From Bacteroidota bacterium (GTDB lineage Bacteria > Bacteroidota > Bacteroidia > Chitinophagales > Chitinophagaceae), in NCBI GenBank assembly GCA_947451115.1, contig CANFXV010000006.1, forward strand, positions 1-64,000: a DNA stretch of 64,000 bases. Reading direction: 5' to 3'. The position numbers and the translations under genes were made by a program. This document shows positions 25,968 through 59,400 of the stretch, piece by piece (within the stretch, counting starts at the first letter, position 1; every line of letters starts with the position of its first letter). The notes beneath the pieces are model-generated. The model saw only the letters and a program-made list of their open reading frames with translations, made no database searches and was not told where the DNA came from.

Positions 25968-28900
25968 ATGAAGTATAAAGGGCTTTATAATTTTTGTCGA
26001 CTTTATTTAAGTAACGATTTTTTAGTAAAAAATCGTAGGGTAGATTTATTGCAAAAATTTAGTATCCCTAAAAAATATTTTGTTTTAATATTCCTACTAT
26101 TGGGTGCTGCAGTTCCTTCTTTTTCAAACACTCTTTTACCAAAAGCAACCATAACCAACCCTTCACTTCCTCCTTTTTTTGTTGCAGGTGCTAATGTTAA
26201 TATCGTAGTTTCTATAGCAGCGACATCAGGTGGTACTTGGTCTGGTACAGGAACTATTGGAGATCCTAGAACTTTTATCCCTACTAATGGCACGCTCACT
26301 GCAAACATCAATAGGACAGAATTAGGGACAGCCATTAGTACTTATCCCTATGTGCAATTAAGTACTACTATAGCAGGTACTTCTTCTGGAACGGGTACGG
26401 TAATTTTTCAAGATACAGTTTATTCAAGAAGTGCTTCAACTGCTACAAGAAAGTTTACCATCAATGCCAATAGCACTATTACAATTGCAAAGGAATTAAA
26501 ATTAACCACTGATTTCCTTACTAATAATCAAAATTTTACATCTGTTGCTATTGAATTAAATAGCACTACAGGAAATATTCTTGTACAGGATTCAATTACT
26601 ACTTCACCTACATTTACTTATTTAACTAATGTTCAAAGAGGGGCAAAGGGTGGAGATATAACCATCAATGCTAATGCAGGAACTATTTCAATAACCGGTG
26701 TTTTACATTCATTAGGACAACTCAACAGGTCTACCAATAGCCAGGTTGCGGCAGCTAGCAATGGTACAGATGCTTATGGTGGTGATGGTGGGAATATTGT
26801 TTTAAATGGCTCAACTGGTATTTCAATTTCAGGGCAAATAAATTCAGGGGCCAACCAAAGTGGTAACAATACATTAGCTGGTGCTATTCCTGGATCATTA
26901 ACAGTGAATACAAGTGCAACTAGTATAACTTCTAATGGCCTTAATGATGGGCAAACAGGAACGGCTCAATTTAATATTGGAAGTTTTACAAAGTTGGGTA
27001 CAGGCATATTTGCACTAAAGAGTTCAACTTGGGGAGGTTATGTTACCGATGGATATAGCAATAATAATCCTGTTTTTACAATTTCAGGTGGTACTTTAAG
27101 CTTAGCTGGAGCTTCAAGTATTTATAAAAATGGGGAACTTGACTTAAGTGCAGGTACAACCTTGGATTTAAATGGCAATTCTGTAACAATTAGTACCTTA
27201 ACTGGAGCCTCTTCTAGTATAATAAAAGGTACGGGAACAATCACATTAATCTACAATAATCCAACTAAACTTTTAACCAGTTTTGATGGTCAAATTACCG
27301 GTGCAGTTTCATTAATTAAATCATCCAATGCAGAAGTTGCGCATGGGGTTTTGGTCTTATCCAATTCGGGAACGGCAAGTGATTACACAGGAACAACTAC
27401 GATCAATTCAGGTTCCATAAGAATTAATAAAGCGAGTGCATTAGGCGCTTCGGGTGCAACTAATAATACAATCATAAAAAATGGGGGTAGTTTGCAAGTC
27501 TTGGGTGCAATTTCAGTTCCAGAACCTATTTCAATCAGAGGAATTGGAGATAATAATTTAACCAATGGTAATACTGACCCTGTTAATTTAAATTATATCG
27601 GCGCCATCTTTGATTCTACTGGAAATAACTCCTTTACTGGGACAATTACTTTAGATAGTGCTGCAACTATTTCCACCTTACTTACAACATCTTCAGCTTC
27701 TCATACTTTAACTTTAACTACAATTAGCTTATCGGGTTATGAATTAACGATTAACAATAACAAGTCAGCAGTGAATGTGTCAGGGATTATTTCTGGAACA
27801 GGGGGGATGCTTACAAAAACCGGAACTGATACGCTAACATTGTCGGGTGTGAATACTTTTACAGGAAGAACAAAAATTTCAAAGGGTACATTGAAGATAG
27901 GAATAGCTAACGCTATAAATAGTGCAAGTGATATCTATTTTGACGGTGGTAATTTAAGTACTGGAGGATTTTCGGACCTTGTAGGTAATGCCTATGTGAC
28001 CAATAGTGGATCTAATTTAATCTTAGGAACAGGGCTTCATACTTTTCAATTTTCTGGTTCAGATAATTCTTTTGCTAGTAATACACTATTAATCAAGGGT
28101 TGGGCAGGAACTTATGCCACACCCGGATCTACTGGAACAGGAGCTAAGCTACAGTTTACCAATAAACAGTTAAGCACACAAATTGATCGATTTAAATTTT
28201 ACAATTACGGTACTTCAGCTACACACAATGCCATCCAAATTAATGCAAGTACTCCTTTTGAATTAGTGCCTGGTAATGTGCCAACAGTTAGTGGCTTTAG
28301 TAATTTAAATATTTCTTCCTCTGCGACCAGTGGAGGTGCTTGGACAGGAGACGGATCTACTGGCACACCATTTACATTTACCATTAGTGCTGAAAATGCC
28401 AACGTCAATATTAATGAAGTATTGACTAAAGTGGTGGCCTCCAATGGTAATGTTAGTTTAAATACAACCTATGCTGCAGGTACACAAAATGGGGCAGTGT
28501 TTTTTAGTAGTGCAGGAACTGCTACTACTACTTCTTCCAATGCAAATACTTTTCAAGTAACAGCAAGCAATTCAATTGTTGTCAATCAGCCTTTTAGTTT
28601 ATCTACAGATGGTACTAGCACTAGTGCACTGGTTCCATCCATTAGTTTAACTGCAGACTCAATTTATATCAACGCAGCAGTAAAATTAAATGCTGCTGCC
28701 AATAGTTTTTCGGGTGGTACAGCTGCTAAAGGAGGAAACATCACACTTACAGCCAATAGCATTGTAAGTATTGCATCCACAGGATCATTAGAATCTAAAG
28801 GAGCAAACAATACCGCAACAGGAGCAACAAGTTTGGGGGGTAATGGGGGTTTGGTTTCCATAACAGGGCCTAATGGTATTTCAATACTTGGAAATATCAA

Positions 28901-31900
28901 TACAAGTAATGGGTACAGTAGTGCTTCAGCATCAACCTTAAATTTATCAAGACCAGGCAAGCTAATCGTAAGTACCAATAATTCCACCGTCAGTTCTAGT
29001 GGATACAATGATGGACAAACCACCAATACTTTAACCATTGGAGATTTGGATAAGAATGGAACTGGTAGTTTTAAAATCACTTCTAGTGTTTGGGGTGGTA
29101 GTGTATCAGGTACCACCAGTTCAACAACACCTATTATCACCGTGAATACAGGTTCCCTTAAATTAGGATCAAGTACAAGTATCAGTGATGTGGCCAATTT
29201 AGTGGTGGCTTCCGGAGCAAGTTTTGATTTGAATGGAAACAATGAAACAATTTCAACCATCTCAGGTGCAGGTACTATAACAAGTACATCAAGTGCCAAT
29301 ACTTTAACACTTTTAAGTGCTAATACAGATGTTACCTCTAGTACATTTTCTGGAACACTTGGTTCAGTATCAATCACCAAAAATGGTACAGGTACTTTAT
29401 TATTAAGTTCAGATAATTCTAATACCTATTCAGGACTAACAACTATTGGACAAGGGGTATTACAAATTTCAAATGCAGGGGCGCTCGGAACTGCCGCTAG
29501 TACTACATCAGTGAGTTCAACAGGAACACTACAGCTAGTAGGAAACAATTTAATAGTTGTTGAACCAATTACAATTAATGGAGATGGATACAATTCTATA
29601 GGTGCTATAAGTAATTTGACAGGATCAAATACATGGTCAGGTACAATCACACTAGGTGCTTCAAGTAAAATTACAAGTGGAACTTTGTCGGGCACAGCAT
29701 CTGATGCGCTAACAATTTCAGGAGGCATTAATATTGCTTCAGCCACTTATACTTTAACCACCGAAGCCATTAAGGCAATGAAAATAGATGGAGTCATAAG
29801 TGGAACTGGAGGATTAACAAAAACAGGCAATGACACTTTGGCTTTAACTGCGGCGAATACCTATACAGGTGTTACCACCGTTAGTACTGGTGCCATAAGC
29901 GTAAGAAATGCTGCGGCCTTAGGAGGTAGTACTACTGCGCAAAATACCATTGTAAGTGCAGGGGCCGCTGTGAATATTGTGGGTGATGGGTTTACTATTG
30001 CAGAACCTTTTACATTAAATGGCACTGGAATAAGTTCCAATGGTGCAATTTGGATACCAAGTACTAGTGGAGCTAGTACATTAACTGGTTTAATTACTAC
30101 AGCAACTGCATCAAGAATTAACAATGATGGAGCTAGTTTATTGACGATAAGCACAGGAGGAATTACCAATACTGGTGGATTAAGTTTAGGCGTTAAAGGG
30201 GCAGGTAATGTGACAGTTTCCTCTGCAATTTCTGGAGCAGGAGCTATTACTAAAGATGGAACAGGTACGGGTAAATTAATTTTAAATGCGACCAATTTAT
30301 ATACAGGTGCAACTAATATTACAGAAGGTATTTTGCAAATACAAAACAAAGATGCCTTAGGTAGCTCTCCTGCTGGAACAAGTGCATCATCCACAATAGT
30401 AAGTAACAATGCGGCTTTGGAAATTAATGGTTCACTTTTAATTCCAGAACCCATTACTATTACTGGTACTGGGTTAACTAGCACAGGAGCCATTAGAAAT
30501 ATTTTAGGAACCAGTTCTATTAGTGGTACCATTTCATTAACAGGCAATGCAAGAATAAATGTGGATGCGGGTACATTGTCTATGACCAATGCGGCCATGA
30601 CCTTAGGCACTTATAATTTAAATGCAGGAGTATTCACGGCTACAAATATGTCTATAAGCAGTGCCATTACAGGTAGTGGTACTCTAACAAAAGATAGTTT
30701 AGGTAGTTTATACTTAAGTGGAACAAGTAGTTCCTACACTGGAGCTATTTCCGTGTACAATGGTGTTTTGAATGTTCAAAATGCAAGTGCATTAGGGGCC
30801 ACTACCGGAATAACCACAGTAAATAGTGGTGCAAGTTTACAAATACAAAATAACATTAGCGCTGCAGAGCCAATTTCCATTGCTGGTAATGGTATTGCTA
30901 GTCAGGGGGCTATTAGAAGTATATCAGGTACAAATATTTTAAGTGGAACCATTAGTTTAACAGCAGACGCAAGAATCAATATAGACGCAGGTACCTTGTC
31001 CATGACAAGTACTGGAACAGCTTTGGCGCTAGATGTAAACAATTTAAATATTGGTGTGTACACATCAACAAGTATCTATGTGACTGGTGCGATAACAGGA
31101 TCGGGAACATTAACAAAAGACAGTACTGGTATTTTATATTTAAGTGGTAATAGTGCTACCTATGCTGGTGCCGTAAATATTTACAATGGTGCTATTAATA
31201 TTCAAACGCAGGCCAATGTATTAGGAACAGTAGCTGGAGCAACCAATGTTTACAATGGGGCTGCTTTACAAATCCAAGGTAATTTAACTACCGCAGAACC
31301 AGTCAATATTATAGGAACTGGTATTAGTGGTTTAGGCGCCATAAGAAGTATTTCAGGTACCAATACCTTTAGTGGTGCCATCAGTTTAAATGGAGCAGCA
31401 AGAATAAATGTGGATGCAGGTACTTTATCCACTACTGGGATTACCATGGGTAGTTATGCTTTAAATACGGGCGTGTATTCAGGAACAACCATGGCGGTCA
31501 ATGGATTAATGACAAGTGATGCAGGAAGTATTTTGACAAAAGATAGTACAGGAACTTTAATTTTAGCAGGAGCCAATACAGGACTTTTAGGAACGATAAA
31601 TGTTTACAATGGAGTTTTAAGAACGCAGCATGCTGATGCATTAGGAGCAGCATCTTCATCAACAAATATCATTTCAAGTGGAGCAGCTCTAGAAATTAGT
31701 GGAGCAACTGCCTTAACCATTGCCGAGCCTATTAATATCAATGGAACGGGTGTAAGTAGTGGAGGTGCCATTAGATTAATTGGAACATCTGCTGCAGCCA
31801 CCTTAACAGGAGGTTTGACTGCACAAACAGCTTCAAGGATAAATACAGATGCAACAACTGGAACTAGTACTTTAACTATTAGTACAACAGGCATTAGCAA

Positions 31901-34900: not shown

Positions 34901-37900
34901 AGGGGCGGATGCAAGAATTGTAACTACTGGTTCTGCATCAACCGATTCATTAATCATTATCACAGGCGGTATTAATACAGGTAATTATACTTTAACTGCA
35001 GATGCGACAAAAGGAATGCGAATTGATGGAGTCGTTACAGGTAATGGAGGAATTACAAAAATTGGAAATGATACTTTAGCCATTACTGGTACAAATAATT
35101 ATACAGGCGCAACCATCGTAAACAATGGAGCCATAAGCGTAAGAAATATTGCGGCATTTGGTGGAACCGGCGGGGCTACAACAGTCAACACAGGTGCTGC
35201 AGTTTATATTGTGGGAGCAGGATTTAATATAGCAGAGCCATTTGTGTTAAATAGTTTAGGTGTTAGTAATGCCAATGGAGCCATTTGGATTCCAAGTTCA
35301 AGTGGGGCCACAACTTTATCTGGATTAATTACCACTAGTGCAGCTTCTAGAATTAACAATGATGGTGCTAGTTTATTAACTATCGGAACAGCGGGTATCA
35401 CAAATACTGGTGGATTAACTTTAGGGGTGAATGGCACAGGAGGGATGACCGTAACAGGTATTATCGCTGGAACCAATGCTTCTACAAGTAATTTAACTAA
35501 AGACGGAACAGGAGCAGGTAAATTAATTTTAACTACGGCCAATACTTATGCAGGAACCACTTCTATTACTACTGGTATTGTTCAAATTACCAATCAAGAT
35601 GCATTAGGAAGTTCAAGTCCAGGCGTGACAGGCTATTCAACCACCACAATAAGTAATGGAGCAGCCTTAGAAATTAATGGAGCAAGTAGCTTTACTATAC
35701 CTGAGGTCATCTATACCAATGGATATGGTGTAAGTAGTACAGGAGCAATTAGATTAATAAGTGGTGCAGCTGCTGCCAATTTAATCGGAGGTATTACTGC
35801 TCAAACAGATTCAAGAATCAATACAGATGTTTCCGTTGGAACCAATACATTAACCATTAGCACCGCTAGTGTGACCAATACGGGCGGATTAAGTTTTGGT
35901 ATAGCAAGCAATGCAGGTATTACCATTTCAAGTGCGATTGCTGGAGCAGGTGGTATCACTAGAGATGGATCAGGAACTGGTAAATTAATTTTAGCTACGG
36001 CTAACAGCTATACAGGAACCACCACTATAACTTCAGGTATTATTCAAATACAAAATGGGGCTGCCTTAGGAAATGCTTCTGCCAATACGGTAGTAGCTGC
36101 TGGTGCAGCCTTAGAAATTAATGGAGCAACACTTGCCATTGCAGAGCCATTTGCATTAAGTGGCAATGGAATTAGCAATGATGGAGCTATAAGAAACTTA
36201 ACTGGTACAAATAGTATCAGCGGTACGGTAACATTAAATGCCAATGCAAGAATAAATGTAGATGCAGGAAGTTTATCTGCTACAAGTAGCACTTCCTTGG
36301 CTACAAATACTTTTTCATTAAACGCTGGGGTAAACACAGCAACAAGCATTGGCATTACGGGTGCCATAACTGGAAGTGGTACTTTAATTAAAGACAGTCT
36401 AGGTACCTTAGTATTAAGTGGAACCAGTACTTCTTATACTGGAGCAATAACAATATATAAAGGTGTTGTAAATATCCAAAGCGCTGATGCCTTGGGAGGA
36501 ACTGGAGCAGGAACCACGGTCTATTCAGGCGCTGCATTGCAAGTACAAACTTCATCCACCACAGTTTTTGCTGCAGAGCCCATTACTATTTCAGGAACAG
36601 GTATTAGCAATGATGGTGTTATTAGAAATATTACAGGAACCAATACTTTGGCAGGCCCAATTACCTTGGCAGCCATTTCAAGAATTAATTCAGATGCAGG
36701 TACATTGGCATTTAGTAATACCAATTCTATCGCATTAGCTACTTATGGTTTAACCATGGGAGGAAATGGAAACAATACGGTGACTGGTGTATTAGCAAGT
36801 ACTGCTTCTTCTGCCACAGCAACATTAACTAAAGAGGGCTCAGGAACTTTAATATTAAATGGAGCCAATACATACACAGGGGCAACTAATATTACAGCTG
36901 GTATTGTACAAGTACAAAACAATGATGCATTGGGAAGTCAAACAGCAGGCACAGGTTCAAGCAATACAATTGTGTCCGATGGCGCTGCTATACAAATTTA
37001 TGGAACTAGTTTAACCATCCCAGAAGCCATTAGTATTTATGGAACGGGAATAAGTAGTGGAGGCGCAATAAGAAACTTCACAGGATCTGGTGGAACAAAT
37101 ATTTTATCCAATACCATTACTTTAAATAGCAATGCAAGAATCAATGTAGATGCTTCTACATTAACCATGAATAATGCCACTGCGGCTATTGCACTAGGAG
37201 GCTATACCTTAAATACTGGTGTAAATACAGCTACCAATTTTAATATCAGTGGACTATTAACAGGTAGCGGCGCATTCACAAAAGATAGTTTAGGTACTAT
37301 TACTTTAAGCGGAACCAATACAGGTTATACTGGACCTATAACAGTTGCAAAGGGTGTAATGAATATACAAAATGCTAGTGCCTTAGGAAGCACAGATGTT
37401 TCAACTACGGTTGTAGCTGGCGCTGCCTTACAATTACAAAATAATATTACAGTAGCAGAACAAAATATTTACATCAATGGGACAGGAGTAGCATCGGATG
37501 GTGCCATCAGAAATATCTCTGGTGCGAATGCATTATCTGGAACTGTAAACTTAAGTACGAGTGCCAGGATCAATGTGGATGCAGGAACTTTATCCATGAC
37601 CAATGCAACAGCAGCGATTGCCATGGGTTCAAGTAATATCAACACAGGTATCGCAGCCTCCACAAGTTTGAGTGTAAGTGGTTTAATTACAGGAACTGGA
37701 AACTTTACAAAGGACAGTACAGGAACAATCTATTTAAGTGGTGCCAATACAGGTTATTCAGGGGCCATTGGTATTTACAAAGGGGTGATGAATATTCAAA
37801 ACAATGATGCCTTAGGAACTACCACAACAGGAACTACAGTTAGCACTGGTGCGGCATTGCAATTACAAAATGGCATTACAGTAGCAGAAGCCCTTATCAA

Positions 37901-40900
37901 TATTAATGGAGGAGGATTTAGCACGGATGGAGCCATTAGAAGTATTACTGGCACCAACACAATTAGTGGAAACATTAATTTACAATCAGACGCAAGAATA
38001 AATGTAGATGCGAATTATTTAATATTAAACAATGGAACAAGTGCAGTAAGCAACAATGCTTTTGCATTAACATTTGGAGGACTAGGTACGGATACTTTAT
38101 CTGGTAAAATAACTGGAAGTGGAACTGTGACCAAGGATGGCACCGGCACATTAGTATTGAATGCAGACAATGGAACAAGTTATACAGGAGCTGCAACTAT
38201 TAGTGCAGGTTTGGTAAATCTAATGAATAATAATTCATTAGGTAGTACCTCTGGGGCTACTTCAGTAACAGCAGGCGCTACGGTTCAAATAGTAAGTGCA
38301 ACTAGTTTAACTATTCCAGAACCCATTACCATTAATGGATCTGGTATTGCTACTAACCAAGGGGTCATCAGAAATCCAAGTGGTGTCAATAAATGGACAG
38401 GGGCTATCACATTAGGTTCATCATCTACTATTGTGAGTGGAACTTTATCAGGAACAAGTTCAGATTCATTATTAATAGAAACTGGCGGTATTAATTTATC
38501 AAGCTTTACTTTAACTACTGATGTTATTAAAGGAATGCGTATTGATGGCGTCATTAGTGGAACCGGAGGTTTAACAAAAATTAGTAATGATACTTTAATA
38601 TTAGGAGGAGCCAACTCCTATAGCGGTGCTACAACATTAACAAACGGAGTCATACAATTACAAAATCAGGATGGTCTAGGAAGTACCACTGCTGGTGTAA
38701 CAGGAGCGTCCAATACCTCAGTAGCGTCTGGCACTACCATTAAAATTGTGGGTACTGGATTTTTGATACCTGAAGTATTATCGCTTTCTGGACTTGGCGT
38801 AAATGCTCAAGGTGTATTAATAAATACAAGTGGCAAAAACAGTTGGCTTGGGGATATTACTATAAGCTCAGATGCAACTATAGTTTCAAATGGGCTTAAT
38901 GTCAATGATTCATTAATTGTTTTAGGTAGATTATTTATTGGGGATGGTTCAACAACCAATGGAATTGTAACAACTGGTTTAATGGTTAATTTGGATGCAA
39001 GTAATGTACTAAGTTATAATAGTTCAGTTGGTGGAACTGTTTGGAAAGATGTTTCTGGGAATAATAATAATTTCAATTTGTCAGGTACTACATTTAATTC
39101 AGAAAATGGAGGAAGTTTTGTTTTCAATGGTAGTAGTAACGGAAAGTCAGCAGGTTCGGTTCTTAATGTAGGGGAATCATCAAAATCTGTAACATGGTCT
39201 GCTTGGGTATATCCAACTACGGCTACTGGAACTATATTTTTCGCATCAAGTGATGCAGGTGGGGGTGGGTGGAATATGCCACCACTTTATTTTACTAATA
39301 AAAGGTTCATGGGCCAAATTTATAGTAATTCTGTTTTGTCAGATGTAGCAGACTTTACTTTAAATAATTGGTACAATGTTACTTTAGTTTATAATAAAGA
39401 TTCCTTATACCAAAAGCTATATGTAAATGGGAGCCTTGTAGCTTCTCAGACTAATATTTCATATGGTGGTCCTGGAGCTAACACCTACTTATTTTTAGGG
39501 ATGGTAAATGGAGGATGTTGTCAAAACGGCACCAATTTTACAGGAAGAATGGGGGCGTTCAATGCTTATGGTAATTATGCATTAACACCAGCTCAAGTTT
39601 TACAAAATTTTAATTACCAAAAGGGTAGATATTTAAATACAAGTTCCTCTGGTAATGGTAGTGTAACTTTTGTATCAAACAGAGCTATAAGATTAAGTGG
39701 AGTAATTAGTGGCAATGGTAATGTTTCCAAAAATGGTGCAGATACACTAGTATTAAATGCAACAAATACATATACTGGTTCAACAAATATTAATGCAGGT
39801 ACAGTTAAATTAGGCGCCACTAATGTCATTTATGACAGTGCGGATATTTATTTCAATGGAGGCAATTTAAGTACAGGATTTAATGAAACAATTAGAAAAA
39901 TGTATTTGACAGGTAATTCTTCTATCACATTGGGTCAAACAAGTCATACTATAACCTTCTTAAAAACAGATAGTTTATTAAACAATAAATCTTTACAAAT
40001 TAAAGGATGGGCTGGAGCTAGTTATACTGCTGGAAACGCTACAGGTACTGGTGGTAAAATTTTTACGAATGACTCGTTGTTGTCTTATCAGTTAGATCAA
40101 ATCAAATTCATCAATCCATCAGATAGTTATAATTATTATACTATTCAATTGGCTACAAAGGAATTGGTGCCAAAAGATAACACCACTTCAAATCCAACCA
40201 ATTATAGTAACGTTACTATATCTAATGCTGCAACAAGTGGTGGAGCATGGACAGGAAGTGGAACAGCAGGAAGCCCCTATGTATTTACCCCTAGTGCAGA
40301 TGATGCGATTGTTTCTTACACAGATATACAAACAAAATTAGCTGAGTCGGGGGGTAATGTACAAATCATAACTTCAAGAAGTGGAGGAACCAAGGCCGGA
40401 TCAATTATTGTAAATAGTAGTATATCTGCTACCAACAGTACGTCAACTAGTGCAAGAACTTTGAGTTTGTTAGCCAGAAACAATGTGGTGGTGTATAAGG
40501 ATATTGTATTAACAGGAAGTGGCTATAGTTCTCCTACAGCTTATCCTGTTCCTAATTTAGTCATGCAAGCAGATGTGAATGACATTGTGGTGCAAGCCGG
40601 ATTAAAATTAAATGGAACGGATCAATCTGTTACGAGTGATACAGTAGCCAATGGCGGTGATGTAACTTTAACAGCAGCGGGCAGGGTAAGAATTGCTGCA
40701 AATGGTTATATTGAATCAAAGGGGGCTAATAACACTGGAAGTGGAGTGGGAGGTAATGGTGGTAAAGTGACATTAAATGGAACCAATGGAGTATCTATAT
40801 TATCCTATATTAATACAAATGCTGGTGCTAAAGGAGGAACAACTGATTTTACTTTATCAAGACCAGGTACCTTAGTTATTGAAACAGCCAATACTAGCCC

Positions 40901-43900
40901 TGGCATTTTTGATGGACAATCGGGTTCGACTTTAGCTGTTGGAAATATTATTAAAAAAGGAACAGGTAAAATAGTTTTAACCTCGACAAGATGGGCAGGG
41001 TATTCATCTTCTGCAGATATTTTATATAAAGCGCAAGATACCATTTATGATGGAACCTTAAAATTAGGAACAGCTAGCACTTTAAGTGATAGTGCAAACA
41101 TATATGTAAACACGGGTACTTATTCAGGGACAGGTGTTTTTGATTTAGGTGGATTTGATGAAACTATTGGAACCATTGCAGGGGCGGGAACTATTACGAG
41201 TACGGCTGGTTCATTAACTTTAAATGGGGTAACAACTAAATCAAGTGCCGCCATACTTACCAGTTTTTCCGGAGGTTTAGTGGGGTCTTTTGGTTTAATA
41301 AAAAATGGTGTAGATAGTTTACAAATAAGTGGAGACAATTCAACAACCAATAATTATACAGGTGTTATTACAGTAACCAATGGGGTGGTTAAAGTAAGTA
41401 ACCAAAAAGCACTTGGTACGACAGCAGGTAATACCATCATCAATGGCACAGGAACAGTTTTAATAGATAGTAATAATTATACTATAGATGAACCATTTAC
41501 AATTAGTGCGGATGGTGTAGCCACTACTCAAGGCGCAATTAGAAACTTAGGAAAAGTAACCACATTAGCAGGAGCAATCACTTTAGGGGCGAGTGCCAGA
41601 ATCACATCGGCTGGGTATAATACTGTCCAACCACTAGATAGTTTAATTATTACAGGTGGTATCAATACAGCAAATGCTTCCTATGTATTAACCTTAGATG
41701 TGCAGGATGGTATGCGCATTTCAAGTGTGATTTCTGGAGCTGGAGGAATTACCAAAGTAGGTAATGATACTTTAAGATTAACAAATGCCAATACATATAC
41801 AGCAGCTACGGTAATAAGTAATGGGGTGGTACAGCTAGAAAACCAAGATGCATTAGGAAGTACCACAGCAGGTGTGACAGGAGCATCCACTACATCAGTT
41901 TCTGCTGCAAGTGCGAGTTTAGCTGCACTAAAAATAGTGGGGTCTAATTTTATTATACCAGAAGCAATATCAATTTATGGTACAGGAGTAAATGGTACCG
42001 GTGCTATTAAAAATATGGGGTCAAAAAATACCCTATTGGGAACAATCACCACAGCAAGTGCAGGGTCATTGATTAGTTCATTAGGAACAGCGATTAATGG
42101 TACAGATTCATTGGTGTTTAGAGGTGGAATCACCAATACAAATTCGCTAACAATAAATGTAGATCGTGCAGTGAGAATTGGTGATCAGGGCGTGGCTGGT
42201 AGTATTATCACAGGAGCAGGCGCAATTACAAAAACAGGATTAGATACATTGGTATTAAATAGTTCAAACACCTATACAGGAATCACGAATATAAATAATG
42301 GAGTTGTATTACTTAAAACAGCTGCAGGTTTAGGTTCTGGTTTAAATGGAACCTCGGAACATACTGCAGTTGCATCTGGTGCTGCTGTGGTATTTGATTT
42401 AAATACACTTACGGTACCAGAGTTCTTCACTATCAATGGTACGGGTATTAATTCAACCGGTGTATTAAGATGGCCAAGTACAAGTACGGGTAATACTTTA
42501 TCAGGTACCATCCTGGTGAATGCAACAGGTTCAAGAATTAATTCAGATGCTGCAGCACTTACCTTGAGCAATTCGACAGCAGCAATAAATACGAGTACCA
42601 ATAATGCATTATCGATAGGAGGGCAAGGTGCAATTACGGTAACAGGTTTATTAGCAGGCGGTGGTACCATCACTAAAGATGGTACTGGGTCGTCTAGTAT
42701 ACTTACATTAAAAGGAAATAGTACTGGATTTACTGGAAGCATTGTTGTTGCAGCAAATAGTAATATTTTAAAAGTATCTCCAACCGCGACAGCCAATACA
42801 AGCGTATTGGGAACCACTGCTGGATCTACCACTATTAATGAGGGAAGTGCGATGCAGATAGAAGGAAGTGTGGCATTAGTTGCAAAACCAATCACGATAT
42901 TTGGAACAGGTATTAATAATGATGGCGTAATTAGAAATTTAAGTGGTACCAACACATTGGCAGGTCCGATTACATTAGCAAATAATGCAAGAATCAATAA
43001 TGATGGAGGCACGCTTACCTTGTCTAATACAATGGCCATGGGGGCTAATACATTAAATACTGGAGTGAATGCATCTACCAGTATGAGTATAACAGGTGCC
43101 ATTACTGGTAGTGGTGCTTTTACCAAGGACAGTACAGGAACTTTAATTGTAAGTGGAACCAATACAAGTTATTCTGGCCCAATCAGTATTTACAAAGGAG
43201 TAATGAATATTCAAAGCAATGCGGCTTTGGGAACTACCGATGTGCCTACCACAGTAGTATCAGGTGCTGCATTGCAATTACAAAGTAGTATCACAGTGGC
43301 AGAAGCCATTATCAATATAAATGGAGCTGGTATAAGCAATGATGGAGCCATTAGGAGTATATCAGGAACGAATGTTTTCAGTGGAGTAGCAACATTGAAT
43401 AGTGATGCAAGAATCAATGTGGATGCAGGTACTTTGGCTATGAATAGTGCCACCAATGCAGTAAGCTTTGGCACTTATACTTTAACCTTTGGAGGAGCGG
43501 CCACCAATACCTTAACAGGAAAATTAAATGGTAGTGGAATTGTGGTAAAAGATGGCGCAGGCATTTTAGCATTGAATGCAGACAATAGTACTTCTTATAC
43601 AGGACCTACCAACATCAATGCTGGTTATTTAAACCTAATGCAAAACAATGCATTGGGAAATACAGCAGCAACAACAACAGTAGCAACTGGAGCTACCATA
43701 CAATTAACTGGAACTGCCATTAATACACCAGAACCAGTAACCATTAATGGAGATGGAATGGCCACCAATATAGGAGCCATCAGAAATCCAAGTGGAAGCA
43801 ATACTTGGTCTGGACCAATTACATTAGCATCTGCCTCAAGAATTGTAACGGCAGCAGGATCAGCTAATACAGATTCTTTAATTATTATCACTGGTGGAAT

Positions 43901-46900
43901 TAATACAGGGAATTATTTATTAACTACAGATGTAAGTAGAGGTTTACGCATTGATGCAGTGATTTCTGGAACTGGTGCATTAACCAAGGTCGGTACCGAT
44001 ACTTTATTATTAGGTGGTTCAAATACTTATTCAGGGGCTACTACTATTTCTATTGGAGTCATACAATTACAAAATCAAGATGGATTGGGTAGTACTACTC
44101 CAGGTGTAACTGGTGCATCCACTACCACTGTTGCCAATGCAGCAGCTTTAAAAATAAAAGGTAATTCATTTATTATACCAGAATCAATTACCATCAATGG
44201 TTCGGGTATTAATAGTTTTGGTGCTATCTACAATCCAAGTGGTATCAATACCATTATTGGACCTATTGCACTAGCTACCAGCTCCACCATCCGATCAAAT
44301 GGTACGGGTACTTCTGATTCTTTATTAATCACCACTGGAGGTATTAATTTATCCAACAATACTTTAACCACTGATGTAATTAAAGGGATGCGTATTGATG
44401 CCGTGATTACTGGAACTGGAGGTACACTTACAAAAATTAGTAATGATACTTTAATACTGGGTGGTGCAAATAATTATACTGGTTTAACAACATTAAGTGC
44501 AGGGGTAATTGAAGCAAAAAATAGTGCAGCCTTTGGAACCAATGCAGGAGCAACTACGATGACTGCGGGTACAACCATTCAATTAGAAGGTAGTGGATTA
44601 GTGATACCAGAACCTATTACTGTTAATGGAGATGGAGTAGTTGTTTCAACAAAGAATCAGGGGGCTATAAAAAATACAAGGAACATTAATAAATGGACAG
44701 GAGCAATCACCTTAGGTTCATCTACTACAATAGTAAGTGGAACATTATCTGGAACTACCTCAGATTCCTTATTAGTAGAAACAGACGGAATTAATTTATC
44801 CAGCTTTACTTTAACTACCGATGTGGTAAAAGGAATGCGTATAGATGGTGTAATAAGTGGTACTGGAGGTTTAACAAAAATCAGTAATGATACTTTAATA
44901 TTAGGTGGCGCAAACTCATATAGCGGAGCTACTACTTTAACCAATGGTATTATCCAATTACAAAATCAGGATGGACTAGGAAGCACCAACCCAGGGGCAA
45001 GCAGTACAGCTGCTTCTAATACCACAGTTGCATCAGGAACAGCAATTAAAATTGTGGGTAGTGGATTTGTAACTCCAGAAGCATTGGTATTAGCTGGTAC
45101 TGGTATTGCGAATAGAGGAGCCGTCTACAATCAAGCCAATAAAAATACTTTATCAGGTGCCATTACCTTTGGAGCTGATGCAAGTTTTTATTCAGATGGA
45201 ACTTCTACATTGGATTCTTTGATTATTACGGGAACAATCAATACTGGGATAGCTTATACTTATGCAACAAGCGGCTTGATATTAAATTTAGATGCTAGTA
45301 ATCCTAGCTCCTATCCATCTCCGTATAATGGTACCACTTGGACAGATTTAAGTAGTAGTGGTAAAAATGGAACTTTATCAAATCAAACTTATAGTAGCGC
45401 AAATGGAGGTTCAATTTATTTTCCTGGTTCAAATATGGTTACTGTCCCTGATTTAGGTTCAGTACCTAGATTTACAATAGAATCTTGGTTTAAACCTACC
45501 GCAATAAATTCTGGAGGTCAAGGTCAATTAATTGTTTCAACATATAATGGGAGTAATATAAACTTTAAGCTTGGTTATGATGGCTCTACAACAATGAGTG
45601 GTGGATTTTTTGATGGTGGATGGAGGAATTCTCCATCTGTAGCCACAACACTAAATACTTGGCAACATTTAGTAACTACCTATGATGGCACTAATATTTC
45701 TATTTATAGCAATGGTAGTTTTGTTGGTTCAACTGCATATACTGGCACACCAAGTAGTTCTGGAAATGGCATAAGACTTGGACAAAGATGGGACATAAGC
45801 TGTTGCTATGAATATTTTATTGGAAATATGGCAGTTGCTAGGATATATAATAAAGCATTATTAGCAACAGAGATTGCACAAAATTATAATGCTAATGCTG
45901 CTAAATATGGTTTAACAGGAGTAGGTGCTGGAGCAGGATCATCTATAGCAAACATCACCATCAATTCAAACAAAGGTATTCGTATCGCAGGTGTTATTTC
46001 CGGTGCAGGGCAAATAACAAAAGTGGGTTCAGATAGTTTAGTATTAACAGGAGTAAATACCACAACAGGGGCACTAAGCATTAATGCAGGTTCAGTAAAA
46101 TTAGGTGCGGCGAATGTAATTTATGATAGTGCTGATATTTATTTCAATGGAGGTAATTTAAGTACGGGTTACAATGAAACGATAAGAAGAATGTATTTGA
46201 CAGATAATTCTACTATTACTTTAGGACAAACCAATCATGCTTTAACTTTTATTTACACAGATAGTTTATTAAACAATAAAACTTTATTAATTAAGGGTTG
46301 GAATGGTTCAAGTTATACTGCAGGGAATGCTTCAGGTACAGGAGGTAAAATTTACACGACTGATTCATTATTGTCTTATCAATTAGATAGAATGAAGTTT
46401 GTGAATAGTAGTTTGAATTATTATGCTGTTCAGTTACCTTCTCAAGCTTTAGGATCGTTAACGAATGCAAAAGAGTTGGTGCCAAAAGACAATACAACAG
46501 ATGCTCCAACTGGCTATAGTAACGTAACTATATCTAGTGCGGCCACTAGTGGTGGTACTTGGTCCGGAACTGGTACTGTGGAAAACCCATATGTATTTAC
46601 ACCAAATGCAGATGATGCAGTAGTCTCTTATGCAGAAATTCAAAGTAAACTCGCATTGACGGATGGCAACGTACAAATTACTACTACAAGAGCAGGAGGT
46701 ATTAAAGCAGGATCAATTATTGTAAATAGTATTATAACAGGAACTAATAGCAGTTCAGTCAATACTAGAACTTTGAGTTTACTCGCAAGAAATAATGTGG
46801 TGGTGTACAAGGATATTATATTAACAGGCAGTGGTTATATTGCACCTACGGCTTATCCAGTTCCTAATTTAGTTATGCAGGCCGATGTGAATGATATTGT

Positions 46901-49900
46901 AGTGCAAGCGGGATTAAAATCAACAGCCACTGCACAAGGACAGGCAGATACAGTAGCCAATGGAGGAGACATTACATTAACAGCAGTTGGTAGAGTAAGA
47001 ATAGCTGCGAATGGATACATTGAAACCAATGGGGCAGCCAATACAAGTACAAGTGCTGCTGCGGTGGGAGGTAATGGAGGTAAAGTTACCTTGAATGGTT
47101 TAGGAGGCATATCCATACTTTCTTACATTAATTCCATCAATGGTAAACGAGGATCAGGTACCACCGATTCTACTTTATCAAGACCAGGAACCTTAGTCTT
47201 GAATACTAATAATGCTAGCCCTGGAATTTTTGATGGTCAATCTGGTTCCCTATTAGCCGTCGGGAATATTATCAAAAAAGGAACAGGTAAAATAGTATTA
47301 ACCGCTACAAGATGGGCAGGTTATACAAATTCTGCGGATATTTTATACAAAGCGGCAGATACTATTTATGATGGAACTTTAAAACTAGGCACGGCCACTA
47401 CCTTAAGTGATAGTGCCAATATTTATGTGAACTCTGGCACTTATTCAGGTACGGGTGTTTTAGACTTAGGTGGTTTCGCAGAAACCATTGGAACCATTGC
47501 AGGAGCAGGAACTATCTCAAGTACAGCAGGATCCTTAACATTAAGCGGCGTCACCACAGTTTCTTCAAGCACACCCATACTCACTAATTTCTCAGGAGGA
47601 CTATCTGGTTCTTTTGGGTTGATTAAAAATGGAGTGGATAGTTTACAATTAAGTGGAGACAATGCGGTAACGAGTGTATATACAGGTGTATTTACGATTA
47701 CGAATGGTGTAGTAAAAATCAGTAACCAAAATGCATTAGGTACCACGGCGGGAAATACTATTGTAAATAATACAGGAACCATTTTAATAGATAGTAATAA
47801 TTATACCATTGCAGAGCCATTCAATATTACAGGTACTGGTGTTGCAGGCAATCCTGGTGTAATAAGAAATTTAGGAAAAATAACCACTTTAACGGGTGCA
47901 ATTACATTGGGTGGTGCAGCAACTATTAGTTCTTTCGGATACAATGTGCCAGCAAATGGTATTGGCTATTTAGATAGTTTATTAATCACAGGCGGCATCA
48001 ATACTGTAAGTTATGCATTAACAACTGATGCAATTAAAGGCATGCGTATTGATGGGGTAATTAGTGGGACAGGAAGCTTAACAAAAATAAGCCCTGATAC
48101 ATTGGTGCTTGGCGGTGTAAATACTTATTCTGGTTTAACCAATATCAATGCAGGTGTGATTGAGGTAAAAAACAATGCTGCCTTTGGAGGTACTACGGCA
48201 ACTACAGGAATAACAACAGTGGCATCAGGAGCAGGTATTCAAATAGAAGGCAGTGGATTGATTATTCCAGAACCTATCACCATTATTGGAGATGGAATTG
48301 CCACAAATCAAGGAGCGATAAGAAATACAAGAAATGTCAATACTTGGTCAGGACCAATTACATTAAATAATACATCTAGTGCAAGAATAGTGTCTGCGGG
48401 AGGTACTGCTGCCGATTCATTATTGTTAACAGGCACTTTAAATACTGGTACCAGTGCGAGTTATAGTATCATTATTGATGGTATTGGAGCTTCCAGATCA
48501 AATAATATTATTGCTGGAACAGGGGGGCTTACTAAATTAGGTACAGCTACTTTAATATTGAGTGGTAACAATACTTATACTGGGGTCACAAATGTTGGAG
48601 CTACTGCTGCCTTTGGAGGTATCTTAAATATACAACATGCCAATGCATTGGGTGGTGTTGGCGCTGCAAACAATACAATTGTTTACAATAATGCTTCTTT
48701 ACAATTACAAGGAGGCATTACTACTGCCGCAGAAGCATTAAATATTAGAGGTACAGGAAATAGTGCTATTGGCGTATTGAGTAATTTAAGTGGAGTGAAT
48801 ACTTATGCGGGTGCTATTACTTTAGATAGTGCTGCAAGAATTAGAGCAGTAGGAGCTACTTCAACCGATTCATTAATAGTAACTGGTACAATCGCTTTAG
48901 TGAATGGAGCAACTTATTCTCCTTTGACTATTGAAACAACAGGTGGTATCCGTTCAAATGGTATTATTTCTGGTGCCAATAGTTTAAGTACCCTTACTAA
49001 AGAAGGGGCGGGCACACTTATTTTATTAGGGGCCAATTCATATGCTGGACAAACCAATATCAACACAGGCTTGGTAAGAATAGGACATGCCACTGCATTG
49101 GGTACTACTGCTGCAGGAACCGTGGTAGCTAATTTAGCAACATTGCAAGTAGATGGAAATATTACAGTGGGTGCTGAAGCATTAAGTTTAAATGGATATG
49201 GAGATGGTACCAATGGATCATTTAGAAGTTTAAGCGCTTCTAATACTTATGGTGGGCCAATTACTTTAACAGGGGCTTCAAGAATTAATTCAGATGCGGG
49301 TAATTTTAATTTAACTACCGCTGCAACCATCAATACTACGGCAAGTGCTTATTCCTTAACATTTGGAGGTGCTTACAATACCACAGCTTCTGGTATCATC
49401 ACAGGTGCGGCTAGTTTAAATAAGGATGGTTCAGGCACTTTGATTTTAAATGCTGCCAATACATATACTGGTGCCACGAATATTAATACCGGAATTGTAC
49501 AAGTACAAAACAATGATGCACTCGGTAGTCAAAATGCAGGAACAGGTTCAAGCAATACCATTGTGTCCGATGGCGCTGCCATACAAATTTATGGAACTAG
49601 TTTAACCATCCCAGAAGCCATTAGTATTTATGGAACGGGAATAAGTAGTGGAGGCGCAATAAGAAACTTCACAGGATCTGGCGGAACAAATATTTTATCC
49701 AATACCATTACTTTAAATAGCAATGCAAGAATCAATGTAGATGCTTCTTTATTAACCATGAACAATGCCACTGCGGCCATTGCACTTGGAGGCTATACCT
49801 TAAATACGGGTGTAAATACAGCTACTAATTTTAATATCAGTGGACTATTAACAGGAAGCGGCGCATTCACAAAAGATAGTTTAGGCACCATTACTTTAAG

Positions 49901-52900
49901 CGGAACCAATACTGGTTATACTGGACCTATAACAGTTGCAAAGGGTGTAATGAATATACAAAATGCGAGTGCCTTAGGAAGCACAGATGTTTCAACTACT
50001 GTTGTAGCTGGTGCTGCCTTGCAATTACAAAATAATATCACGGTTGCAGAACAAAATATTTACATCAATGGAACAGGAGTAGCATCGGATGGTGCCATCA
50101 GAAATATCTCTGGCGCGAATGCATTATCTGGAACTGTGAACTTAAGTACGAGTGCCAGGATCAATGTGGATGCAGGAACTTTATCCATGACCAATGCAAC
50201 TGCAGCAATTGCCATGGGCTCAAGTAATATCAACACAGGTATCGCAGCCTCCACAAGTTTGAGTGTAAGTGGTTTAATTACAGGAACAGGAAACTTCACA
50301 AAAGACAGTACAGGAACAATCTATTTAAGTGGTGCCAATACAGGTTATTCAGGTGCCATTGGTATTTACAAAGGGGTGATGAATATCCAAAACAATGATG
50401 CCTTAGGAACAACCACAACAGGAACTACAGTTAGCACTGGTGCTGCTTTGCAATTACAAAATGGCATTACTATAGCAGAAGCAATTATCAATATTAATGG
50501 AGGAGGATTTAGCACTGATGGAGCCATTAGAAGTATTTCTGGCACCAACACAATTAGTGGAAACATTAATTTACAATCAGACGCAAGAATAAATGTAGAT
50601 GCGAATTATTTAATATTAAATAATGGAACAAGTGCAGTAAGCAACAATGCTTTTGCATTAACATTTGGAGGACTAGGTACGGATACTTTATCTGGTAAAA
50701 TAACTGGAAGTGGAACAGTGACCAAGGATGGTACTGGTACATTAGTATTGAATGCAGACAATGGAACAAGTTATACAGGAGCTGCAACTATTAGTGCAGG
50801 CTTGGTAAATTTGATGAATAATAATTCATTAGGAAGCACCTCTGGGGCTACTTCAGTAACAGTCGGTGCTACAGTTCAAATTGTAAGTGCAAGTAGCTTA
50901 ACTATTCCAGAACCTATAACCATCAATGGGGATGGTATCGCTACCAATCAAGGAGCTTTGAGAAATCCTAGTGGAAATAATACATGGACAGGGGCCATTA
51001 CGGTAGGCTCGGCTGGTGCAAGAATTGTGAGTGGAACTTTATCAGGTACTACAACGGATTCTTTATTAATTACTACTGGAGGAATTAATACTGGTACTGC
51101 AAGTTCTACTTTAATATTGGATGTAGTGAAAGGAGTGCATATAAGAGGTGTTATATCTGGTGCGGGAGCATTAACCAAAATAAGTGCTGATACTTTATTA
51201 TTAAGTGGCGCCAACTCCTATACGGGTGCAACTACATTAAGTGCAGGAGTTATACAATTACAAAATCAGGATGGTTTAGGAAGTACCAGTCCAGGGCCTA
51301 GTAGCACTACTTCAACAACGACTACTGTGTCCACTGGGGCTGAAATAAAAATCATAGGCAACAATTTTATCATACCAGAATATTTGAATTTAGCAGGTAC
51401 CGGTGTGAATAGTTTTGGTGTGGTGTACAATCCTAGTGGAAAAAATACTTTAACTGGTGCTATTGTATTAAATGGTGATGCTACTTTGTTTTCTGATGGA
51501 AGTTCGACTTCTGACTCTTTAATTGTGACTGGTACTATCAATACAGGGGTAACGACATCTATTGTTACCAATGGTTTATTATTAAATTTGGACGCTGGTA
51601 ATGCGAGTTCTTACCCATCCCCATACAATGGAACAACATGGAATGATTTAAGTGGAAATAATAACCATGGTACTCTAACCAATGGACCAACTTATGATGC
51701 GGCAAATGGAGGAAGCATTTTAATGGATGGGGTTAATGATTATGTACAAACACCACTAGTAAGTTCTGCAATAACGAATGTTACGATGCAAGCATGGGTA
51801 TATGTAAATCTAAATTCTAAAGGTGCATTTATGAAGAATGGTACCAATTCAAACGGATATAGTTTTGGAATGGGAACTTCAGGCAATTATGATGGAGCAG
51901 GAAATGAATTTGTGATGCTTTATCCTGGTATTCGATGGATTCCTACTAGTTATACATTTTCAACAGCTGGATGGAATTTAATCACCATGACTCTAGATGG
52001 ATCTTCGCTTCCTTCTGCTTATATAAATACAACATCATTAGGGAGTTTTCTTGGGAATGGGAGTATTCCTGGTGCACCTACTGGAGGGACAATTTTAGGA
52101 GCAAATATTGGAGATGGTAATAGATTTTACAATGGAAAGTTTGCAGCCGCTTATTTTTACAATAGAGTCTTGAATTCAACAGAAATTGCACAAAACTATA
52201 ACGCACTATCAAGTAGGTTTGGTTTGGGTGGAACTTCTTCTGTTGCTTCAATTTTAACCATCAAATCTACAAAAGGAGTTCGTCTGTCTGGCGTCATTTC
52301 AGGCGGGGGTAATATCATTAAAACCGGAACAGATACTTTAATCTTGCAAGGAACCAATACCTTTTCTGGTACTGTAAGTATCACAACAGGTGCAGTAGAA
52401 ATAAAAAATGCGGCGGCCTTTGGAACCGCTTCGGGTACCACCAATGTGGCTACTGGTGCAACTGTGCAAATTGAAGGAGCCAACTTTATTATACCAGAAC
52501 CAATCACCATCAACGGAGATGGAGTAGTAGTGAGTGGCGTGAATCAAGGGGCCATTAAAAATATTAGAAATATCAATACTTGGACAGGGCCAATCACTTT
52601 AGCATCTGCATCAACTATTGTCAGTGGAACCTTATCAGGAACTACAACAGATTCTTTGTTAATCACTACCGGCGGAATTAATACAGGCAGTTATACTTTA
52701 ACAACTGATGTTGTGAAAGGTATGCGCATTGATGGCATAGTTTCAGGATCTGGTGCATTTACAAAAATTAGTGCGGATACATTAATAATGGGTGGTGCGA
52801 ATACTTATACTGGATTGACAAATATTACTAGTGGAGTAGTAAGTGTAAAAAATAACACAGCATTTGGAACAGCTTCTGGTACTACTTCGATAAGTGATGG

Positions 52901-56422: not shown

Positions 56423-59400
56423 ATGAAGAAATTTCTATTTTCCCTACTTACGATAAGTGTATTTTCTACAGCTGTATATGGCCAAAAATCTGACCCGATA
56501 AAAGCAGGGTTTTTAAATCCTCCAAAAACGGCTAAGCCAAGAGTTTGGTGGCATTGGATGAATGGAAATATCACTAAAGATGGGATAAAAAAAGATTTAT
56601 TGTGGATGCAAAAATCGGGCATTGGTGGATTTCAAAATTTTGATGCGGCCATGATGACGCCTCAAATTGTAAAGCAAAGATTGGTGTACATGACCCCAGC
56701 ATGGAAAGACGCTTTTAAGTATACCACTAAATTAGCAGACTCTTTAAAATTAGAAATGGCCATTGCTGGCTCTCCCGGATGGAGTGAAACAGGTGGCCCT
56801 TGGGTAAAGCCAGCAGACGGAATGAAAAAACCTGTGTGGACAGAACTTAGGGTCAGAGGCGGACAAGAAAATATAGTCATCGCAAAACCCAATGATATTA
56901 CAGGCCCTTTTCAGAGTATTCCCAAACAAGCCGATTTTGGCGCTGAAGTGAATCCAACGGATTTGCCTCATTTTTACAAAGACATTGCAGTGATTGCTTT
57001 TAAAGTACCAAATGCTGATAAATCTTTAGCAGAACTTGGTGCAACCATTAGTGCTAGTGGAGGAAATTTTACTTTAGCAGCATTAATAGATGGAGATTTA
57101 AGCAAAGGCATTTTATTGCCAAGAGATGATGTTAAAGGATTTGCATGGATTCAATTTGAATTTCCACAACCCACTACCATCAAGGCCATCACCATGGTGG
57201 GCGGAGGCAATCCCGGTGTATTTGGCCAAGGAGCAGATCCAGCCGATGCAAGAGCTTTAGAAATAAGTGATGATGGAATAAATTATCAATTCATCACGAC
57301 AATTTTTATTGGATCTACTTTACAAAACACTCTTTCCATTCCTGCCACTACTGCAAAATATTTTAGAATAAAAATTAAGAACCCACCGCCAAGTACGGGG
57401 GGTCTAGCTGCCTTACTTGGTGCCCCATCTGCACCAGTGATTCCTCCTGGGGTGATGATTCAAGAAATAAATTTATATCCAGCAGATCGACTTCACATGT
57501 TTGAAGAAAAAGCAGCCTTCACGCCTGTGATGGATTTAGAAGCTAAAAGAACCTGGATAGCAAATGATGTGATTGAGGCCAAGGACATTATTGATTTAAC
57601 AACCAAGATGGATGCCAATGGAAAATTAAATTGGAAAGTGCCTGCGGGGGATTGGAAAATTATGCGCTTTGGGTATTCCTTAATGGGCATTGAAAATCAT
57701 CCAGCCTCTCCAGAAGCCACAGGTTTGGAAGTAGACAAAATGAATCCAGCAGCCATCAATAGATATTTTACCAATTACTTAAATCAATACAAGTCTGCGA
57801 CGGGTGGTTTAATGGGGGCTAAAGGAGGCTTGCAATTTATGGTCACAGACAGTTGGGAGGCAGGGGCGCAAAACTGGACCGCCAATTTGCCTGAAGAATT
57901 TTTAAAAAGAAGAGGCTATAGTTTGATTCCATGGTTGCCTGCTTTAACAGGTCATATTATTAAATCAGCCACAGCAACAGAAGCATTTTTATTTGACTTT
58001 AGAAAAACCATTGGAGATTTAACCGTGGCTTATCATTATGATGGATTAACCAATATACTTGCACGCTATGGTATGAAAAGATATTCTGAATCGCATGAAG
58101 ATGAAAGAAGAATTATTGCCGATGGGATGGAAGTAAAAAGAACAGCAGCCATTCCTATGTCAGCCATGTGGACACCGAATCCATTCATTAATGGCAACGA
58201 TCAACACAAGTATACCGCAGACATTCGTGAGTCTGCTTCTGTGGCACATATCTACGGGCAAAATATTGTAGCGGCAGAATCATTCACTGCACTGGGATTG
58301 CCTGCAGCGGCTTGGTCTTATGCGCCAGAAAATTTAAAATCCACGGCCGACTTAGAATTGGCCAATGGATTGAATCGTTTTGTGATTCATTGTTCAACGC
58401 ATCAACCATTAGATGATAAAATTCCTGGTTTGGGCTTGGGCCCCTTTGGTCAATGGTTCAATAGACATGAAACCTGGGCCAACCATGCCGATGTATGGAT
58501 TAATTATTTGGCTAGATCATCCTATTTATTACAGCAAGGAAAATTTGTGGCAGATGTAGCAGTATTTTATGGAGAGGACAATAACATTACTTCTTTGTAT
58601 CGTTTTCGTTCACCCTCCATTCCAACAGGCTACAACTATGATTTTGTAAACTCGGATATTTTATTGCATGAGTTGACTTACGTGAACGGCTATTTTACGA
58701 CCAAAACAGGCATGAAGTACAAGGTGCTCTTCTTAGATTCCAATGCCAAGCAAATGTCTATAGATGTTTTAAAGAAAATAAAATCATTCGTAGATGCAGG
58801 GGCCATCGTTACCGGAATTAAACCAGAAAGGCCAACAGGCTTAAAAGACAACAATGCTTTATTTTATCAATTGGTAAATAAAATATGGTCGCCTGCGCAT
58901 CAAAATATTAGCACCGGCAAGACGGTACAGGAAGTGTTAACGCAGGCTGGTGTTAGCAGTGATTTTTCTTTCAATGATCCGAATGCCAAAATAATGTATG
59001 TGCATCGTAAATTAAAAGACAAAGATATCTATTGGGTGAACAACAGAAAAAATGAAGCACAAAAATTAGATATAGTATTTAGAGTTATCGGGAAAGAAGT
59101 GGAGCTATGGCATCCTGAAACCGGAAAAATTGAAAAAGCAAATTATGCCTTCGTAGGTAACAAAACCAAGGTGACGATAGATTTTACACCTAATGATGCG
59201 GTCTTTGTTGTCTTTGGTAAAAAAACAACACAAACCACTTATACAAAGCCCATTGAATTGGAGAACAGATTGATTAGATTAGCAGGAGGTTGGGAAGTGA
59301 ATTTTCAAAAAGATAGAGGGGCTCCTGAAAGCATTACCATGGATGAACTAAAATCGCTCACTGAAAATGAAAATACTGGCGTGAAGTATTTTTCTGGAAC

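Follow-up and report, generated by a model that had tools for sequence, protein, structure and literature searches.

A 10,123-residue PATR-LamG protein in a Sediminibacterium-like bacterium is a patchwork of block copies, not a 6.3-kb super-repeat, and adjoins a possible accessory type IX secretion cassette

A 64,000-nucleotide stretch of a Chitinophagaceae genome (positions 1 to 64,000 of contig CANFXV010000006.1, assembly GCA_947451115.1; the window hereafter) carries a single open frame at 25968 to 56339 on the forward strand, encoding a giant predicted surface protein of 10,123 amino acids. The basic repeat of this giant is a unit of about 147 amino acids (147 ± 4.6) of the PATR, or autotransporter-associated beta-strand repeat, type, not a 6.3-kb period, and the protein grew as a patchwork in which blocks of three to five units were copied at several offsets. 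In sum, it comprises an N-terminal signal region, 52 PATR-type units, a module of N-terminal type (module A) in four copies, three LamG domains, and a C-terminal FN3-like domain. The protein's own sequence supplied the profile with which the units were mapped, and PATR motifs recur every 139 to 159 residues wherever LamG and module A do not intervene. The PATR families (PF12951/TIGR02601) are recognized over about 49 stretches of the giant, with 24 to 25 matches per 5,000 amino acids and PF12951 scores of 178 and 188 bits against a curated cut-off of 27. The source genome (G000) is metagenome assembled (2.12 Mb in 59 contigs, 89% complete), with the locus on its contig C6. Relatives of a neighboring gene at 87 to 94% identity come from Chitinophagaceae/Bacteroidetes metagenome-assembled genomes (MAGs), one of them a Sediminibacterium sp., and the host is a freshwater, Sediminibacterium-like member of the Chitinophagaceae.

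The three LamG domains lie on the forward strand at 38967 to 39641 (LamG1, 58.4 bits), 45261 to 45914 (LamG2, 76.4 bits), and 51561 to 52226 (LamG3, 56.0 bits), all above the curated cut-off of 27.6 bits for Laminin_G_3 (PF13385). Each is inserted at the equivalent position in one of three related units (U24, U34, and U44). A preliminary description of this DNA had proposed a super-repeat of about 6.3 kb, with LamG domains at steps of 6,297 and 6,300 bp, a shared upstream sequence, and module A behind the first two domains. These landmarks are all present: the NLDA(S/G)N anchors of the LamG domains stand 2,099 and 2,100 residues apart, IQLQNQDGLGST precedes each domain, and module A follows both LamG1 and LamG2. 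The super-repeat itself did not survive comparison of the units, which we carried out all-against-all at the protein and codon levels, by tree, and by permuting the unit order 2,000 times. Only patches of sequence are homologous at the 6.3-kb offset, amounting to about 3.3 kb in one interval and about 1.2 kb in the other.

At an offset of 10 units, U23 to U26, with LamG and module A, match U33 to U36 over about 3.3 kb. The first copy (38313 to 41587, forward) runs from part of U23 through U24, LamG1, U25, and module A to U26, and matches the second (44604 to 47911, forward; part of U33, U34, LamG2, U35, module A, and U36) in blastn pieces at offsets of 6,290 to 6,291 bp, with 74.6 to 77.8% DNA identity outside the LamG itself. 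A third, partial copy (50904 to 52226, forward; part of U43, U44, and LamG3) lacks module A and matches U33 to U34 and its LamG at the DNA and amino acid levels over about 1.2 kb only; 50904 to 51712 is 67.6% identical in DNA to 44604 to 45409, and amino acid identity between U34 and U44 is 0.66. Units U27 to U32 match their offset-10 partners, U37 to U42, at background level, in the 35th to 84th percentile of all unit pairs. Block homology among the units is nevertheless not a product of chance: nine collinear high-scoring unit pairs were observed against a permutation mean of 0.49 and a maximum of 4. Offset 10 has five high-scoring pairs, with a P value of 0.001 when taken alone and 0.021 when the best of all offsets is considered.

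The unit tree places the LamG-bearing U24, U34, and U44 in one clade (support, 0.92), adjoined by U27 and U32 (1.00), which have no LamG. It also groups U22 with U30 and U42 (0.95), U23 with U31 and U43 (0.92), and U33 with U45 (0.80), so that U22 to U24 correspond to both U30 to U32 and U42 to U44, and U30 to U33 to U42 to U45. Neighboring blocks thus pair 8 and 12 units apart and do not keep step with the LamG domains, which are separated by 10 and 10. On the evidence of this tree and of the unit scores at offset 10, we rejected the whole 6.3-kb period as a repeat. One might still suppose that a true super-repeat arose by tandem triplication and that later conversion and reshuffling of units erased the resemblance between the central parts of the copies. 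The equal number of units between LamG domains, the LamG clade, and the five high-scoring pairs at offset 10 would all fit such a history. However, the middle units retain no preference for their offset-10 partners, module A is missing both after LamG3 and 6.3 kb before the copy behind LamG1, and the pairings of U30 to U33 with U42 to U45 (offset 12) and U22 to U24 with U30 to U32 (offset 8) would call for subsequent insertions and deletions that cancel exactly. We regard triplication as unlikely and prefer patchwork growth.

With patchwork growth, we treat the near-equal spacing of the LamG domains as a coincidence, given an equal unit number and length changes that cancel. Compared piece by piece, the two intervals differ by -2, +11, +2, -10, and 0 residues. 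It could be argued that compensation among such unlike pieces, yielding 2,099 and 2,100 amino acids, reflects selection on the distance between binding heads. Yet there are just two intervals, and with units of 147 ± 4.6 amino acids, two random spans of 8 units agree within 1 amino acid in 6% of draws and within 3 in 15%; moreover, the LamG domains are only 32 to 43% identical and unlikely to act as one equally spaced set. Selection on the spacing therefore strikes us as quite improbable.

Module A is likewise not an element of fixed period. Its four copies lie on the forward strand at 26196 to 27290, 27924 to 29354, 39831 to 41279 (after LamG1), and 46122 to 47603 (after LamG2). With 39831 to 41280 as the query, the first, second, and fourth copies showed 34, 44, and 79% amino acid identity, and a search of the giant found no copy after LamG3. 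Spacing of 1.7, 11.9, and 6.3 kb, with two of the four copies near the N terminus, is too irregular for a period. Similarly, a fourth copy of IQLQNQDGLGST at 44061, in the LamG-less U32, rules that sequence out as a LamG marker.

The preliminary description had also expected binding domains to sit at regular intervals along a fiber; the LamG sequences do not support one repeated binding domain. Their amino acid identities are 32% (LamG1 and LamG2), 43% (LamG2 and LamG3), and 34% (LamG1 and LamG3), whereas the 130 residues ahead of them are 64, 63, and 59% identical, respectively, and the module A copies after LamG1 and LamG2 are 77.5% identical in pairwise comparison. The LamG heads thus appear to have diverged, or to have been replaced, faster than their scaffold, which makes it likely that the three have different ligands. 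As a separate observation, the entire 10,123-amino-acid protein has just six cysteines, with vicinal CC pairs at residues 4517 to 4518 and 6612 to 6613, in LamG1 and LamG2 only.

The strongest internal duplicate contains no LamG and lies at a different offset, 12,591 bp. It joins 36825 to 38688 (U20 to the start of U24) to 49416 to 51288 (U40 to the start of U44), both on the forward strand, at 90.3% identity. Its core, at 36930 to 38310 and about 49521 to 50901, is about 96% identical over 1.4 kb and has sharp edges, beyond which identity falls to background. Agreement at fourfold degenerate sites is 0.62 to 0.88 in the units of this duplicate against a background of 0.36, and near background (0.29 to 0.42) in the LamG and module A copies. 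By this measure the 12.6-kb duplication is a recent event, and the copying of the LamG domains dates from long ago. The 1.4-kb tract would be most simply read as the product of gene conversion between repeats. A fresh block duplication is present in a relative (G007), whose PATR protein (L025:9316-13593, at a contig end) repeats 1,678 bp that include module A, at 99.8% identity and an offset of 2,448 bp, up to the end of the contig.

Homologous blocks were found in all at offsets of 7, 8, 10, 12, and 20 units. Growth by duplication of multiunit blocks, as first proposed, is therefore upheld by these offsets and by the duplicate in the relative, while three copies of a single whole block at 6.3 kb are not. 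An old event carried LamG and module A together (about 3.3 kb), an older or partial event carried the LamG unit alone, and the recent 1.4-kb tract was copied over 12.6 kb without a LamG, as expected of conversion between repeats. The giant illustrates how many overlapping block copies and, it appears, conversions can build a bacterial surface protein of 10,000 residues where no regular super-repeat is involved, the scaffold being kept as the binding domains diverge.

One might suspect misassembly behind the long frame or its repeats. The genome is a MAG in 59 contigs, and the contigs of relatives stop inside such genes (G007, G041, and G047). Against an assembly artefact, one frame stays open for 30 kb, and the best internal copies differ (about 96% identity at most over 1.4 kb and 90% over 1.9 kb), so they are not collapsed or looped. 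Furthermore, in G041 the C terminus of the PATR giant adjoins rhaT, as it does here, and this same-site orthologue is collinear and 71% identical over the last 884 amino acids. We consider it scarcely credible that the long frame or its repeats are artefactual.

Taken as a whole, the protein is probably a giant filament at the cell surface, with adhesion as its most likely role, and its patchwork-grown PATR chain is predicted to be exported by the type IX secretion system (T9SS). The PATR units would form a long beta-helical stalk, the LamG domains would project from it as three different carbohydrate- or glycoprotein-binding heads some 30 to 40 nm from one another, and the giant would cross the outer membrane via the T9SS. 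An AlphaFold2 model of U33-U34-LamG2-U35 is all-beta in its PATR part, with block pLDDT (predicted local distance difference test) values of 81 to 93 over most of residues 1 to 260; a sequence search of the PATR units against the PDB gave no match. A beta-helix has about 25 residues per turn and a rise of 0.48 nm. On this geometry, the approximately 1,870 stalk residues between LamG domains would span an estimated 32 to 41 nm. The genome encodes SprA on C33 (2236 bits) and a canonical gldKLMN operon on C16, away from the giant's locus.

Several observations weigh against parts of this reading. The model is poor over LamG2, where block pLDDT drops to 27 to 77, so any geometry of the heads is tentative. 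Neither a genome scan nor NCBIfam and Pfam scans of the C terminus detected a type A T9SS C-terminal domain (CTD; TIGR04183) on the giant, and the latter scans gave no other sorting-domain match there either. Finally, a PorG-like protein encoded upstream (5287 to 7425, forward) lacks a cysteine near the C terminus across nine homologues. Since the cysteine(s) in the C-terminal tail of PorG are periplasmic and bond to GldK (PMC12635249), coupling to the canonical track would require another arrangement, and a direct tie to it is uncertain. A candidate for the sorting signal is the FN3-like C-terminal domain, which shares 34 to 37% identity with its counterpart in the final large protein of two other loci of the cassette type discussed below (E values of 1e-12 to 1e-17) and is therefore common to the last giants of three cassettes.

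The PATR-LamG giant joins an already known kind of protein. It shares its repeat unit with PATR/autotransporter-associated beta-strand repeat proteins (PF12951, TIGR02601) and is weakly similar to ShdA-type autotransporters (NF011847; E = 1.1e-16; 59 bits, far under the cut-off of 2249). Unlike autotransporters, it belongs to a Bacteroidota host with a T9SS and has module A and LamG insertions. Pfam found no autotransporter beta-barrel in the last 423 amino acids, for which NCBIfam returned only PATR and the FN3-like stretch. All three LamG domains pass the cut-off for Laminin_G_3 ConA-like lectin/glucanase domains, from which they differ in being 32 to 43% mutually identical and inserted in a repeat unit. 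A LamG fold search retrieved jelly rolls of the general ConA-like kind (pentraxins, an arabinanase domain, and lectin-like domains of other proteins), with query TM-scores no higher than 0.18 among the matches listed, and these matches inform on fold only, with no implication for function. Like the SprB-type giant adhesins of Flavobacterium, which are exported and moved by the T9SS, the giant is repetitive and predicted to be on the surface of a T9SS host, with motor-type genes nearby, but it has no type A or B CTD recognized in our scans. Its repeats are also of the PATR type and not of the SprB type. A literature search on PATR combined with LamG and on Sediminibacterium giants, missing most subscription journals, returned nothing relevant.

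The giant lies within an island of about 57 kb (2119 to 59759) that separates mazG from rhaT. The site, which was also aligned, is empty in two relatives, L027 and L029, whose mazG and rhaT genes are neighbors (about 97 bp apart in L029). At its upstream end, the island encodes three divergent proteins that match the GldL_N, GldM_4th, and PorG families of the T9SS motor GldL/GldM (PorL/PorM) and of PorG. The first, of 515 amino acids (2348 to 3895, forward), matches GldL (TIGR03513; E = 1.3e-6) in its N-terminal part only, at 28.5 bits against an NCBIfam full-length cut-off of 68.3. Its close homologue in L148 scores 39.6 bits for PF22827 (cut-off, 24), a profile search matched four solved GldL structures in the PDB (one significantly, at 2.6e-4), and the fold of the island protein matches 7sat, 7sau, and 7sax with probabilities of 0.96 to 1.00. 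The protein combines the GldL transmembrane hairpin with an extra cytoplasmic domain of about 350 amino acids, confidently predicted in structure, which makes it longer than canonical GldL. Among the matches listed, no PDB fold match above a probability of 0.1 fell outside the hairpin; a 26% identical match to the extra domain lies inside a 2,345-amino-acid open reading frame (ORF) of a more distant relative (G130:C178:13249-14283). GldL requires a glutamate, E49, in its second transmembrane helix (PMC8986121). E50 of the island protein is invariant in 10 homologues and aligns with the corresponding glutamate of the 7sau GldL and of the host's own GldL; with this residue kept, the accessory motor is probably active.

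The second protein, GldM-like and 457 amino acids long (3914 to 5287, forward), scores 31.3 bits for the GldM C-terminal domain PF12080 (cut-off, 24.6), which all 10 family members match. This assignment came through Pfam: a sequence-profile search of the family against the PDB gave no GldM match, and full-length profile comparison with the host GldM was weak (probability, 1.7%). The third, the PorG-like protein of 712 amino acids, departs from canonical PorG also in this length. It ends in a PorG-like outer membrane barrel (NF052316, E = 4.1e-14, below the full-length cut-off of that model; PF19573, 26.5 bits against 23.2). PF19573 is matched by all nine family members, and the family had no match in the PDB.

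This arrangement is not confined to the island. A second cassette of GldL, GldM, PorG, and tail-fiber-like giant genes occurs elsewhere in the same genome (contig C19; L148, L149), near a tyrosine-recombinase-like gene (Arm-DNA-bind_5), and its GldL-like protein is 69% identical. Strong matches to the long GldL-like form occur in 27 further genomes of the genus, and 395 other genomes sampled across the phylum, few of them of this genus, yielded no member of the GldM-like family. Where contigs reach far enough downstream, the cassette gene order leads into a T9SS-CTD protein and/or tail-fiber-like giants, and the cassette of G007 runs through a tail-fiber-like giant to a PATR protein. A literature search on extra GldL/GldM sets, also missing most subscription journals, found nothing relevant, and within that limited literature the cassette looks like a new, genus-restricted variant of the T9SS. 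The three island proteins may form an accessory proton-driven motor serving giant cargoes, although we are less sure of this step. Tentatively, and at somewhat below even chances, we propose a genus-restricted accessory type IX system in movable cassettes, in which a GldL-GldM motor pair, enlarged by the extra cytoplasmic domain, and a PorG-like barrel would drive export or surface movement of CTD-less giants (tail-fiber-like and PATR-LamG) via an undescribed sorting signal, perhaps the FN3-like domain. The island is of more general interest than the build of the giant: if the extra GldL/GldM/PorG set is a motor dedicated to giant CTD-less cargo, T9SS motors can be modular and cargo specific.

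The remaining island genes are all on the forward strand. A 151-amino-acid lipoprotein-like cassette gene (7434 to 7889) has similar small counterparts at the same place in other cassette loci. It is followed by a membrane protein with an AraC-type helix-turn-helix, a candidate regulator (7961 to 9040; PF12833, 6.5e-7, 30.0 bits, under the curated cut-off of 33.6), a 164-amino-acid AraC-type helix-turn-helix-like protein (9230 to 9724; PF12833, 5.9e-4, also under the cut-off), and a 163-amino-acid protein with a T9SS type A sorting domain (9721 to 10212; TIGR04183, 33.4 bits against 23). Two ORFs then encode repeat proteins with phage tail-fiber-like repeats, of 1,778 amino acids (10220 to 15556; tandem repeats of 69 and 150 bp) and 3,462 amino acids (15556 to 25944). 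Across both (10220 to 25944), tandem repeats range from 12 to 150 bp and a T9SS CTD was not found; the smaller begins with a domain present in other cassettes (GILFQAVARD...). No tRNA was found at the island within the window. The last island gene, absent in L027 and L029, whose sites are empty, encodes a glycoside hydrolase family 106 (GH106) alpha-L-rhamnosidase with an F5/8 type C domain (56423 to 59755; PF17132, 1052 bits). Beyond it, up to 64000, lies a rhamnose utilization run of rhaT, an aldolase-dehydrogenase, a mutarotase, and an isomerase.

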